The notes under the pieces: generated by a model | What the model was told of the DNA's origin: nothing | What the model saw: only the letters and a program-made list of their open reading frames with translations | Databases searched by the model: none | Origin: Nocardiopsis sp. FIRDI 009 | GTDB lineage: Bacteria > Actinomycetota > Actinomycetes > Streptosporangiales > Streptosporangiaceae | DNA length: 64,000 bases | Assembly: GCF_003386285.1 (NCBI RefSeq) | Contig: NZ_QPNC01000006.1 | Coordinates: 1-64,000 of the forward strand | Direction of reading: 5' to 3' | In this document: piece after piece, positions 16,368-59,841 of the stretch | Layout of the letters: each line of letters starts with the position of its first letter | Numbering within the stretch: the first letter of the stretch is position 1 | Program-made: the position numbers and the translations under genes

Positions 16368-16510
16368 CCCGAGGGGGTTTCGTTCGGGTACCGGCCAGGG
16401 TTGTGCACGACGAGGCGAGCCGCGCGCGAGGAACGAGCGGCGGGCGCCGCCGAGGATGAGGAGTCCCCGGCCTTTCGGGCACCCGGACACGAGTCGAGGC
16501 GGAGCGGAAG
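16368..16510 (-). repeat. Dispersed intergenic repeat, copy 1 (full length)
   Basis: Read on the minus strand, this stretch aligns along its whole length with 26219-26370: a start CCGCTCCGC, a middle CTCATCCTCGGCGGCGCC, a core CGCTCGTTCCTCGC and an end CCCGAACG...ACCCCCTCG. It begins about 18 bases after the argR stop codon and lies in the argR-argH gap. It encodes no evident protein. Confidence 0.75.
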
Positions 16511-16527
16511 CTCAAGGCACGCACGGC

Positions 16528-20231
<3,704 letters not shown>

Positions 20232-25851: not shown

Positions 25852-26167
25852 ATGGCGACCTCCGAGCCGAGTCATGCGCATGAGCGCAGCGGAAAACTCA
25901 GGTTGAACCGACCCACACTTGGGCGCCCAGAGTGTGTCAGGTGCTTGCAGGCTAAGTTCTCCACCCACCGGTGGGCAAGAGCCAAAACGATGCTTCATGC
26001 CCCGAAACCCAAACTTCATGCGGGCTACCCTCGGTGACCATCGCCAAAACCCCTGATACGCAGGAAAAACAGGGCGAAAATCAGTCGGGATCCGATCCCC
26101 TCCGATCGACGTTTTCGCCGTGCTCCGGGTGTCCCGGTTCACGCGCGCGGCATCCCCCGGACACGGC
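25852..26167. other. Intergenic stretch upstream of the aminotransferase gene
   Basis: No gene seen. The base composition is clearly more AT-rich around 25900-26080 than in the surrounding coding DNA, consistent with a promoter region for the leftward aminotransferase gene, but I could not fix hexamers. Confidence 0.4.
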
Positions 26168-26208
26168 GGCGGGGCCGGTCCCCCGTGAGGGGTCGACCGG
26201 CCCCGCCG
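26168..26208. terminator. Terminator hairpin downstream of pheST
   Basis: A 13-bp GC stem GGCGGGGCCGGTC/GACCGGCCCCGCC with an inner CCCC/GGGG, extended by ACAC/GTGT across a small bulge. On the plus strand it is followed by GTGTTTGTTC. It ends the leftward pheS-pheT transcript after the repeat at 26219-26370. Confidence 0.6.
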
Positions 26209-26218
26209 TGTTTGTTCT

Positions 26219-26370
26219 GGTCCTCCGCTCCGCTTTGGACCGTGTTCGGGCGCCCTCAAGGCAGGGGTGCTTCATCCTCGGCGGCGCCTGTCGCTCGTTC
26301 CTCGCTACGCGGCTTGCCTCGTCTTGCAGCACCCTGCCGGCGCCCGAACGGAAGACCCCCTCGAGTGACC
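26219..26370 (+). repeat. Dispersed intergenic repeat, copy 2 (full length)
   Basis: On the plus strand: GGTCCTCCGCTCCGCTTTGG, GACCGTGTTCGGGCGCCC, CATCCTCGGCGGCGCC, CGCTCGTTCCTCGC, then CCCGAACGGAAGACCCCCTCG. It aligns end to end with copy 1 (minus strand, 16368-16510) and its two ends match copy 3 (38947-39022). It lies between the pheT stop and the hairpin at 26168-26208, opposite to pheT in orientation. Confidence 0.75.
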
Positions 26371-26389: not shown

Positions 26390-28879
26390 CTACGCCCGCG
26401 GGGTCGCCCCCGTGCGCTCGACCGCCTCGGCCACCGCGGCGTCACGCGCCGCGGCGCTCTCCTCGGCGGTCAGCGTGCGGTCGGCGGCCCGGAACCGCAG
26501 GGTGAAGGCGACCGACTTACGTCCCTCCCCGACCTGCTCGCCGGTGTAGACGTCGAACAGGCGGACGCTCTCCAGCAGGTCTCCCGCGCCCGCGGCCAGG
26601 GCGTCGCCGACCGCTCCGGCCGGGACCGCCTCGTCCACGATGAGGGCGACGTCCTGGGTGGCCACCGGATAGGTGGACACCTCGGGCGCGACGGTCTCGG
26701 CGCGGGCGCCCTCCATGCGGTCCAGATCGACCTCGACGGCCGCGCTCCGCTCGGGCAGGGAGAACGCCTTGACCGTGCGCGGGTGCAGCTCACCGGCGTG
26801 ACCCACGAGCACGCGCTCACCGTCCACCCGCGTGTAGAGCGCGGCGCAGCGGCCGGGGTGCCAGGGGGCGTGCTGGTCGGCCTCGACCTCCAGCTCGACC
26901 CCGGCGACCCGGGCGATGTCCCGGGCCACCTGGATCGCGTCGGCCCAGCAGGCCCGTCGGCCCTGCCCCCACCAGCCCGCGCGTTCGACGTCGCCCGCCA
27001 GGACAGCGCCGACCCGGCGCGGCTGGTCGGGCAGGGCGGCGTCGATCTGGCGGAGCTCCTCGGCGCTGGGCCCCCGGTCGACCGGCAGCAGCGGCGCACG
27101 GGTCGATCCGGGCTTGGGCCGGTAGACCAGGCCCATCTCGAAGAGCGCGACGTCGGGGAAGCCGCGGCCCACGTTGCGCACCAGGGCCTTGAACAGGCCC
27201 GGCAGCAGCGTGGTGCGCAGCAGCGGCTCCTCGTCGTTGAGCGGGTTGGCCAGACGCAGGCTCACCCGGCGGGCGTCGTCGGCCTCCAGTTGGAGCCCGT
27301 CGAGGTCGCGCTCGCCCACGAAGGGGTAACTGAGCACCTCGTTGTAGCCGGTGGCGGCCAGGGTCCGCCCGACCGCGCGGCGCAGCCGCTGGCTGGCGGT
27401 CAGCCCGCGTCCGGCGGGGGCCCGCGGCGGGACCGAGGGGATGTTCTCGTACCCCTCCAGCCGGATGACCTCCTCGGCCAGGTCGTTGGGGTCGGTCAGG
27501 TCGGGCCGCCAGGTGGGCGGGGTGACCGCCAGGGTGTCGCCGTCGGCCTCGACCTCGCAGCCCAGGAGGCGCAGCCACTTCTCCGTGGTGCCCTCGGGGT
27601 AGTCCACCCCGGCGACGGCGCCCGCGTGGGCGGCACCGACGCGGATCGGCGTGCGGGGTGTGGTCTGGTCGACGTGGGTGTAGGCGCCCTCGACGGTGGC
27701 GCCGCCCAGCTCGGCGAGGAGCTCGACCGCGCGGGTGGCGGCGGCCAGCTGCACGGCGGAGTCGATACCGCGCTCGAAGCGGCGGGAGGACTCCGAGGAC
27801 AGCTGGTGGCGGCGCGAGGTCCGCGCGATGTGCATCGCCTCGAAGTGCCCGGCCTCCACCAGGACCTCGGTGGTGGTCAGGGAGATCTCCGTGGACAGTC
27901 CGCCCATGACGCCCGCGATGTTGACCGGGCCGGTCTGGTCGGCGATGACGATGTCGTCGGGGTCCAGGGCGCGCTGGACGTGGTCCAGGGTCTCCAGCTT
28001 CTCCCCCTGCGCCGCGGGACGCACGGTCAGGGCGCCCCTGAGTCGGCCGCGGTCCCAGGCGTGCAGCGGCTGTCCGAGTTCGAGCATCACGTAGTTGGTG
28101 ACGTCGACCGCCAGGGAGATCGGACGCACGCCGCTGTGGTGGAGCCGACGGCGCATCCACATCGGCGTGGGCGCCTGCGGGTCGAAACCGGTGGCGCCGC
28201 GCAGGACGTAGCGGTCGCACACCTTCGGGTCGACCTCGGCCGGGTGGCCCCCGCCGGTGGGCTCGGCGGTCTCGACGGCGGCGGGGTCGCGGAAGTCCAC
28301 CCCGTACAGGGCGGCGACGTCCCGGGCCACCCCGCGCATGGACAGGGCGTAGCCGCGGTCCGGGGTGACGGCGATGTCGAGGACGTCCTCACGCAGGCCG
28401 AGCGGACCGATGGCGTCCGTCCCCACCTCCCCGAAGCCCTCGGGCAGGACGATGATGCCGTCGGGGTCCTCCCACAGCCCGAGCTCGGGCGCGGAGCAGA
28501 TCATGCCGGCCGACATCCGGCCGTAGGTCTTGCGGGCACCGATGCGGAAGCCGCCGGCCAGCTCCGCTCCGGGCAGGGACACCACGACGAGGTCGCCCTC
28601 GCCGAAGTTGCGGGCGCCGCAGACGATCTCCTGCGGTTCACCGGTTCCGTTGGCCGGTCCGACGTCCACCCGGCAGAAGCGGATGGGCTTCTTGAAACCG
28701 GTGAGCTCCTCGATCTCCAGCACACGGCCGACGACGACGGGGCCGCTGATGTCGGAGCCGAGCTCGTCGACGGTCTCGACCTCCAGGCCGGCCAGGGTCA
28801 GCTTGGCGGCGAGGTCGCGGGCGGTGACGTCGGACGGCAGGGCGACGTACTCCCGCAGCCAGCTCATGGGGACGCGCAT
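26390..28879 (-). CDS. pheT: Phenylalanyl-tRNA synthetase beta subunit
   Basis: The 829-residue beta chain of the (alpha-beta)2 PheRS. It starts with the B1 domain [31 protein letters not shown] and an OB-fold tRNA-binding part. It continues with the B3/B4 editing domain, the catalytic-like core ([46 protein letters not shown]) and a C-terminal ferredoxin-fold anticodon-binding domain ([24 protein letters not shown]). Length is normal. Its ATG overlaps the pheS stop codon by one base plus two (ATGA), so synthesis is coupled to the alpha subunit. Confidence 0.97.
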
Positions 28880-38904: not shown

Positions 38905-38936
38905 AGGCGGGTGCGGAACCGGTTCCGCACCCGCCT
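38905..38936. terminator. 32-bp perfect palindrome downstream of alaS
   Basis: AGGCGGGTGCGGAACC is followed directly by its complement. Like the hairpin at 26168-26208 it directly precedes a copy of the dispersed repeat and would end the alaS transcript. Confidence 0.65.
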
Positions 38937-38946
38937 GGCGTGTCGT

Positions 38947-39022
38947 GTTCGTCGTGGTCCTCCGCCGCGCTTCGGACCGTGTTCGGGCACCCCGAACGGC
39001 GTCCGAACGTCAGACCCCTGGG
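38947..39022 (+). repeat. Dispersed intergenic repeat, copy 3 (internal deletion)
   Basis: GTTCGTCGTGGTCCTCCGC...CTTCGGACCGTGTTCGGGC matches the first third of copy 2, then CGTCCGAACGTCAGACCCCT matches its last part; the CATCCTCGGCGGCGCC-CGCTCGTTCCTCGC middle is missing. It fills the space between the palindrome at 38905-38936 and the alaS stop codon. Confidence 0.65.
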
Positions 39023-59406: not shown

Positions 59407-59461
59407 GAGAGGAGTTCTACCAGGTGCCGACCCGGACACCGCGAGGGGCGTACGGGGTTCC

Positions 59462-59520
59462 GCGGGAGGAGTCGAGCCGCCGGCGAGGAACGAGCCAGGC
59501 GAGGGCGACGACGAAGAATC
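59462..59520 (-). repeat. Dispersed intergenic repeat, copy 4 (degenerate, partial)
   Basis: Read on the minus strand it contains CTCGTTCCTCGCCGGCGGCT, closely matching the core of copy 1 (CTCGTTCCTCGC..GCGGCTCG), flanked by weaker similarity (GGATTCTTCGTCGTC against GGACTCCTCATCCTC). It lies between rpoZ and coaBC, the same kind of site as the other copies. Confidence 0.4.
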
Positions 59521-59574
59521 CCGGTTCTCCACGCGCCGAGCCCCGTGCGAGCCCGCGGGCACGCACAAACGCGG

Positions 59575-59841
59575 TCAGTTCCCCTCGTAGGGCTCGGCGG
59601 TCAGCAGGCCGGCCTTGACCTCGCGCAGGGCGATGGACAGGGACTTCTCCTGGACGTGGGTCTCCACGAGCGGGCCGACGTACTCCAGCAGGCCCTCGCC
59701 GAGCTGGGCGTAGTAGGCGTTGATCTGGCGGGCGCGCTTGGACGCCATGGTGACCAGGCTGTACTTGCTGTCGACGCACTCCAGCAGGTCGTCGATCGGC
59801 GGGTTGGTGATGCCTTCGGCGACGGGCTCGGTACCAGCCAC
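59575..59841 (-). CDS. rpoZ: RNA polymerase omega subunit
   Basis: The 88-residue omega subunit that helps assemble beta-prime. [38 protein letters not shown] contains the conserved KY-LV-AAKRARQI motif; the C-terminus [16 protein letters not shown] is the usual actinobacterial tail. GTG 59841 has GGGGGAT upstream. Standard order gmk-rpoZ-coaBC-metK. Confidence 0.96.

Follow-up and report, generated by a model that had tools for sequence, protein, structure and literature searches.

A candidate family of REPIN-like hairpin DNA elements behind gene ends in Nocardiopsis

The Nocardiopsis genome examined here (5.80 Mb, 60 contigs) carries a dispersed, structured repeat of about 135–150 bp, which we interpret, with a probability of roughly 0.6, as a family of non-autonomous, non-coding, REPIN-like hairpin DNA elements, a single strand of which would be recognized by a putative mobilizer. 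Four copies lie in the window, the stretch of 64,000 nucleotides that was analyzed (C56:1-64000), in the gene settings argR/argH, pheT, alaS (next gene ruvX), and rpoZ/coaBC. The sequence-only reading of the window had named the flanking genes argR, pheT, alaS, and rpoZ, and Pfam domains agree with it (ArgR, ArgH [Lyase_1], PheT, and AlaS, with RpoZ as a member of the Rpb6 family and a CoaBC-type protein). That reading had also proposed a BLAST search with copy 2 and a covariance model of the copies. The model that was built (R1) matched all four window copies in a search of the source genome, with scores of 149.4, 107.1, 66.1, and 47.9 bits; copies 1 and 2 were included in its training set, and copies 3 and 4 were not.

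Copy 1 lies between argR and argH, with hairpin 1 and the main hairpin at 16380..16517 on the minus strand (107.1 bits), an apical loop, GCTCGTTCCTCGC, at 16426..16438 (minus strand), and a right tail that runs to about 16368. The argR stop codon, a TGA read from the sequence, occupies 16528..16530 (minus strand), and hairpin 1 starts 14 nt on, at 16513. A BLAST query from copy 2 matched copy 1 at 16370-16508(-) with 80% identity (E 5e-27), which bears out the suggestion that the two are related along their full length. Copy 2 itself (R1 match at 26215-26351, plus strand, 149.4 bits) is immediately preceded by a terminator-like palindrome (26168..26207, plus strand; the stretch 26164-26212 folds at -45.0 kcal/mol). 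On the plus strand there follow the leader, GTGTTTGTTCT (26208..26218, assigned by the leader profile), hairpin 1 (26219..26241, with the minus-strand loop GC-GGA-GC, assigned by covariation), and the main hairpin (26244..26349, assigned by folding and covariation), which has a 5-nt bulge, two-base mismatches, and a conserved tip. The apical loop of the main hairpin, GCTCGTTCCTCGC (minus strand GCGAGGAACGAGC), lies at 26293..26305 and is identified by its conservation in alignment A2 (see below). The right tail (26350..26370, plus strand) differs among copies, and the pheT stop lies beyond it, at 26390-26392 on the minus strand.

Copy 3, on the 3' side of alaS (38952..39010, plus strand, 47.9 bits), consists of hairpin 1 and the foot of the main hairpin. 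It had been described as lacking its middle, and this description holds, because the main hairpin is lost while its foot remains, as in other short copies. Copy 4, between rpoZ and coaBC (59439..59567, minus strand, 66.1 bits; RpoZ and CoaBC-type domains by Pfam), had been taken for a bare core and proved instead to be a subtype with different outer arms. The observation that copies 2 and 3 adjoin palindromes was confirmed (26168-26207 and, on the plus strand, 38905..38936), and in each case the palindrome precedes the left end of the copy, that is, the leader and hairpin 1. The claim that all four copies directly follow stop codons stands for copy 1 (argR TGA) and copy 4 (rpoZ TGA, 59575..59577, minus strand), whose left ends are on the stop side; copies 2 and 3 have their left ends behind a palindrome and their right ends facing pheT and alaS. 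Nor does orientation simply vary, as had been thought: the left end adjoins a stop codon or, in other copies, the foot of a terminator-like palindrome.

The 147-nt query from copy 2 returned at least 51 matching pieces in the source genome (a lower bound, as 40 of 136 first-look candidates were scored), so that the further genomic copies sought by the sequence-only reading exist. R1 gave at least 87 matches at E<=1 and at least 50 at E<=0.001, again lower bounds, with 150 of 9898 candidates scored. The unit comprises an 11-nt leader, a small hairpin 1, and a long imperfect main hairpin. With the orientation of copy 2 defined as plus, the leader consensus is GTGTTTGYTYT, and hairpin 1 takes the form GGNCC-TC-CGC-TTC-GC-TTC-GGNCC. 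The long outer arms of the main hairpin in this genome are TTCGGGCGCC...GGCGCCCGAA, interrupted by a one-sided 5-nt bulge, above which single pairs are parted by two-base mismatches; the structure closes in the tip GC-TCGTTCCTC-GC, which on the minus strand is the conserved GC-GAGGAACGA-GC. Some copies, but not all, have a right tail (ACCCCCTGGGGTGACC...). Short forms, of which copy 3 is one, have lost the main hairpin and kept its foot, and the subtype with other outer arms comprises copy 4 and three further loci (L028-L030). A second repeat module (CGCCCTCCACCACCCTCAACGGACGCCTACGGCGCGG and variants) occurs within or beside the main hairpin at eight loci of the source genome (L012, L014, L017, L023, L024, L121, L123, and L128), in tandem at L017, and is also present in three loci of relatives (L046, L047, and L326). 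A separate G-rich minisatellite (CCCCCTGTGGTGGAGGTGTGTGGGCGGGACTCGTG-like, about 35 bp) is repeated behind the element in N. eucommiae and N. terrae (L054, L033, L035, and L056).

The structure is supported by covariation. A 39-pair structure was drawn by hand on 33 copies chosen by their tip motif (alignment A1), from which R1 was built. In A1, 89.7% of cells are paired, a percentage that is biased because the structure was drawn from the same sequences, and 19 pairs show two-sided changes; the covariation score was 0.194, compared with 0.075 in 500 shuffles, none of which scored as high, and with at most 0.075 when the structure was slid along the alignment. Alignment A4 draws its 53 matches, 51 of them distinct, from Nocardiopsis and four further genera of the same family, with one genome from a second family, and is the stronger set, although its rows were aligned to the model, which favors the structure. 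All 39 pairs show two-sided changes in A4 (349 cells), and covariation reached 0.420, compared with 0.115 +- 0.008 in shuffled alignments and at most 0.112 in slid controls. MAFFT and RNAalifold, applied to A1, returned only part of the fold (15 pairs). Among the sequences listed from other genera, the stems differ considerably in sequence, whereas the minus-strand tip GAGGAACGA recurs, either exactly or with one base changed. Of the 111 distinct rows of A2, which were gathered with the model built on the tip-selected A1, 56 have the exact 13-base tip, 4 have it exact with an insert alongside, 28 differ from it by one to three bases, and in 23 it is of another length or missing. In one copy-rich relative (G012), the apical stem around the tip alternates between ACATCC/GGATGT, ACACGC/GCGTGT, and ACGCCC/GGGCGT, with occasional mixed copies. 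Covarying arms could come in part from template switching within palindromes, without selection; template switching would be expected to repair the conserved internal mismatches too, yet these stay unrepaired.

Several features point to the minus strand as the one that folds. The two-base mismatches, which are C.T/T.C on the plus strand, are tandem G.A/A.G on the minus strand, a stable arrangement. Among non-Watson-Crick cells, A-C/C-A (wobble pairs on the minus strand) outnumber G-T/T-G (wobble pairs on the plus strand) by 174 to 111 in raw counts that include relatedness among copies. The minus strand was the more stable in 49 of 53 sequences with RNA parameters and in 49 of 53 with DNA parameters; copy 1 of the window is one of the four RNA-parameter exceptions, in which the plus strand is the more stable. 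On the minus strand, the hairpin 1 loop in 300 distinct contexts is GNA in 199 (GAA 164, GCA 17, GGA 13, and GTA 5) and GNNA in 65. Mini-hairpins of DNA are described as extraordinarily stable when they have two or more G-C pairs and a loop of the form GNA or GNNA, whatever the N; GCGAAGC has a Tm of 78 C (PMC4686876). Hairpin 1 has this loop type in 264 of the 300 contexts, the difference being that the mini-hairpins are described there as a structural motif and not as a family of mobile elements. The 65 four-base loops divide into 59 GNYA and 6 of the RNA type, GNRA, and this argument for DNA over RNA is a moderate one because 46 of the 59 come from a single genome of another genus (G074), leaving 13 GNYA to 6 GNRA elsewhere. 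Taken together, the loop types make single-stranded DNA a somewhat likelier candidate than RNA for the form that would fold in cells.

We examined placement relative to genes at 70 loci of the source genome (30 found by BLAST and another 40 by the model, with E values up to 0.1). The stop of an open, codon-biased frame lies at most 25 nt before hairpin 1 in 48 of these copies and at 12-15 nt in 38; the leader begins 1-3 nt past the stop codon. Among the other 22, several lie behind terminator-like palindromes or behind another copy, the stop at L131 was missed by the frame test, and a few are anchored on an internal match. Over all loci, a collection that overlaps the first set, a stop is present at 74 of 139 distinct sites, with a distance of 12-15 nt in 63, and in the eleven named genomes the figure is 33 of 74 (28 at 12-15 nt), with many of the others behind copies, palindromes, or tRNA. 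TAG stops are enriched beside copies, both in the source genome (27/48, compared with 23/72 in the window background) and in the eleven named genomes (22/33, compared with 117/347). We considered a TAG supplied by the element and rejected it: the stop is not part of the unit because TAG is absent from -16 to -14, before the leader, in copies that do not adjoin a stop, and conservation starts at about -11. Placement beside stops could combine a targeting preference with the loss of insertions inside genes, two contributions that are inseparable here. At five loci (L037, L056, L057, L255, and L258) in N. terrae, N. prasina, and G001, copies lie directly behind what is apparently one tRNA gene, possibly a recurrent insertion site. 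An encoded CCA at one tRNA junction, in G001, was considered as a sign of a retro-event and dropped, as it fits the leader consensus and is absent in N. terrae (G003).

The element has very probably been mobile in the recent past, judging by comparisons of sites and copies. We compared 27 sites with the closest relative, G043, one locus of which, 2704 bases long, exactly matches a record from N. lucentensis DSM 44048 (L181 and L209). The element is absent from G043 at three sites. At one of them (L123/L170), the flanks meet behind the same TAG with a few bases near the junction changed, and this is the only clean empty site; at the other two (L128/L162 and L011/L178) the flanks have diverged, and at L011/L178 the stop in G043 is TGA instead of TAG. 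The check for empty sites suggested by the sequence-only reading thus gave sites without the element, and the accompanying check for target-site duplication found none at those three; such a duplication, together with terminal inverted repeats, is what would be expected of a DDE-type MITE. At two sites (L002/L166 and L006/L173) the copy in G043 has the opposite orientation; at L002/L166 the left end lies behind the stop of the convergent gene, so that each of the two convergent genes has a left end behind its stop. G043 has a copy or a remnant at 21 sites, nearly intact at L007/L187 and L022/L181, and the one further site falls at a contig end and could not be read. Many of these 21 are remodeled, with the main hairpin lost, the inner module swapped, or the unit in tandem.

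Other comparisons are of the same kind. Among 30 loci each, the copy between argR and argH is present in two (the sole other R1 match among these, L086, lies beyond argH) and the copy at pheT in five (the source genome, G043, G045, G022, and G048), where G043 and G022 carry it in the orientation opposite to that in the source genome. In G012, a counterpart at another locus with at least 0.95 identity (best 0.99) exists for 16 of 28 distinct units; in G074, this applies to only 2 of 29 units. Tandem arrays have periods of 134, 141, 179, and about 201, some with identical units. Whole units lie inside the apical loop of another unit, with the host halves on both sides, at seven loci of G074, which may not all be independent events; the host is cut between GCTCGT and CTCGC at L307, L309, L311, and L321 and similarly at L312, L323, and L324. 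The proposal that the repeat is mobile and non-coding is supported by its copy number, its presence or absence and opposite orientations in a sister species, near-identical dispersed copies in a relative, tandem arrays, and nesting. Against the REPIN-like reading stands the finding of no transposase, excision product, or target-site duplication, with Y1 enzymes covered by the transposase search and three empty sites by the search for duplication.

BLAST with the consensus matched 22 of 41 genomes, namely 22 of 25 in the genus and none of 16 outside it; several members of the genus have few or no copies by this measure, and one Nocardiopsis, G006, was without a match both here and in the model searches across the order and the class. 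The exact hairpin 1 pattern was found in 65 stretches among 84,980 species genomes, all of them from Nocardiopsis and 'Glycomyces fuscus' TRM 49117. Records of the latter (NYMS01000053.1 = L215, and others) contain Nocardiopsis-type copies, and the genus name looks outdated or wrong. Of 150 genomes searched across the order, the model matched 40 at E<=1e-4, of which 28 belong to the genus and the other 12 to different genera of the same family; G074 has 50 copies and G099 has 18 at E<=0.001. Across the class, at least 9 of 296 genomes matched at E<=1e-5 under strict filters, with at most 11 candidates scored per genome, and one match outside the family (G201) is a single copy with the full architecture. 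At E<=1e-5, the copy 2 query matched none of 50,697 phage records and none of 72,556 plasmid records, and the exact hairpin 1 pattern did not occur in viral contigs. Rfam 15 gave no match on the window at gathering scores; in seven loci from several genera, searched at E<=1, its only match was a SAM riboswitch (RF00162, 76.5 bits) near the copy of one relative, at L043:73-214(+). Among the papers listed by literature searches on such repeats in Nocardiopsis or actinobacteria, none has a title or abstract opening that describes this one, which is weak evidence of absence.

Two kinds of enzyme that might move the element were sought with Pfam models. The Y1 transposase model (PF01797) has no match in the source genome or in the copy-rich G012, G013, G019, and G003; it matches 13 of 40 genomes of the genus, including the sister G043 (2) and G022 (1), and none of the 10 Y1 loci examined, of 27 matches in relatives, carries a copy. 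The suggestion that the repeat depends on a transposase has no support from these searches for the Y1 enzyme. Reverse transcriptase (PF00078) has no match in the source genome, G043, G012, G013, G019, or G003 and is present in 12 of 40 genomes of the genus; in G007 and G015 there are 22 and 10 matches, many of them equal-scoring, which suggests recent spread of intron-like elements. In other genera, the genes that neighbor copies appear unremarkable: the scan covered 60 of the 85 flanking frames, and no transposase is among the 25 of 83 Pfam families listed. A GTAG/CGTC tag on either strand occurs in none of 33 copies before hairpin 1 and in 5 of 33 in windows at the feet of the main hairpin. 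A resemblance to attC was considered and discarded: the arms run GTT...AAC, which is the reverse of their order in attC.

Four other explanations were weighed against the reading of the repeat as a REPIN-like mobile DNA element. A structured RNA, in which a minus-strand transcript (read-through from the convergent side) would act in cis or in trans (it might shield 3' ends, terminate transcription, or use GAGGAACGA to bind a protein), with recombinational spread as a secondary matter, would account for the pervasive covariation and the conserved loop, both typical of such RNAs, for the better folding of the minus strand with RNA parameters too, and for the location at gene ends, which suits a role in 3' UTRs. 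We nevertheless consider it rather unlikely: orientation follows the left-side gene, whose transcript corresponds to the opposite strand, the four-base loops are predominantly GNYA, as counted above (albeit mostly from G074), Rfam has no match on the element itself, and nested and tandem copies indicate mobility. The earlier suggestion of an RNA-acting element keeps a minor probability: it is the strand antisense to the left-side gene that carries the conserved fold, and the small-hairpin loops fit the rule for DNA mini-hairpins, although one genome supplies most of the informative four-base loops. A repeat with no dedicated mobility, a MIRU-like palindromic minisatellite spread by recombination, hairpin-tip breakage, and template switching, is to our minds decidedly unlikely; in its favor are tandem arrays, in part made of identical units, nesting at the tip, and, at shared sites, mosaic swaps and hairpin loss, but tight spacing to the stop codons of unrelated genes and conservation of the tip across genera suggest a specific recognizer.

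Mobilization of a classical REP/REPIN by a Y1 transposase (RAYT) would match two published descriptions, one of which places REPs <20 bp from the 3' ends of genes, with ends that often supply a TAG stop (PMC3733652), and the other of which describes REPINs in tandem clusters and their insertion into existing REPINs (PMC3116915); in addition, some copy-bearing relatives have Y1 genes. It is nonetheless very improbable given the distribution of PF01797 described above and a unit of 135-150 bp with two unlike hairpins. To a SINE-like retro-element, in which the precise left end would be the 3' end of a minus-strand RNA and the ragged right end would reflect 5' truncation, we give almost no weight: one end is constant and the other variable, and left ends do lie behind a tRNA and behind gene 3' ends, but PF00078 is missing from the six genomes named above. 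Both the RAYT model and the retro model lack their enzyme in the source genome, as far as Pfam models see. The REPIN-like, non-autonomous reading is the most economical.

The element is of the REP/REPIN kind but falls outside the RAYT-mobilized family, where we do not place it because tests for the enzyme and for the tagged foot were negative. REPINs and REPs of the GTAG and CGTC types resemble it in being short, intergenic, hairpin-forming, and many-copy, in lying near gene 3' ends, and in forming tandem clusters and inserting into copies, and CGTC REPs likewise have no known transposase (PMC3116915, PMC3733652). The present unit differs from REPINs in its larger size, its asymmetric pair of a small and a long hairpin, its conserved internal loops, its 9-nt tip, and its leader GTGTTTG, as well as in having no GTAG/CGTC tag at the foot of hairpin 1 and no Y1 transposase in the source genome. 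Set against the definition of a REP as a 20-40 bp palindrome tagged at its foot, it is a high-copy, intergenic, palindromic repeat at gene 3' ends, but of about 135-150 bp. The MIRUs of mycobacteria are likewise intergenic actinobacterial repeats beside stop codons and in tandem arrays; they are not known to have hairpin structure, whereas the unit described here is strongly structured. The ends of IS200/IS605 and other HUH elements carry a single-strand hairpin fixed 11-12 nt from one end, which has its likeness here, and are not known to make target-site duplications, of which none was seen at the three empty sites compared here. No HUH enzyme is linked to the repeat, in a search that covered Y1 (PF01797).

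Under the REPIN-like reading, the strand antisense to the left-side gene would fold as single-stranded DNA, probably while replication or repair leaves it exposed. A putative trans-acting protein would recognize the GC(GNA)GC hairpin, the internal loops rich in G.A, and the conserved tip, and would copy the unit beside gene ends or into hairpin tips; insertions within genes would be removed by selection. Copies may secondarily end or stabilize transcripts. A broader proposal, which we advance tentatively, is that the repeat represents an undescribed class of single-stranded-DNA mobile element in the Streptosporangiales and perhaps beyond, whose folded strand, with sheared G.A pairs and GNA mini-hairpins, would be recognized by a putative enzyme that inserts units right behind stops and into hairpin tips.

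Short palindromic repeats behind genes are classic in Proteobacteria and are linked there to Y1 RAYT transposases. The present element is a larger and more elaborately structured REPIN analogue in high-GC actinobacteria, without Y1 in the source genome and with a 9-nt tip kept across genera. The element offers a concrete bait for finding a new mobilizer and may be a case in which selection on the secondary structure of DNA, not of RNA, is visible as covariation. It also sharpens an old question, namely why such repeats lie at a fixed distance behind stop codons.
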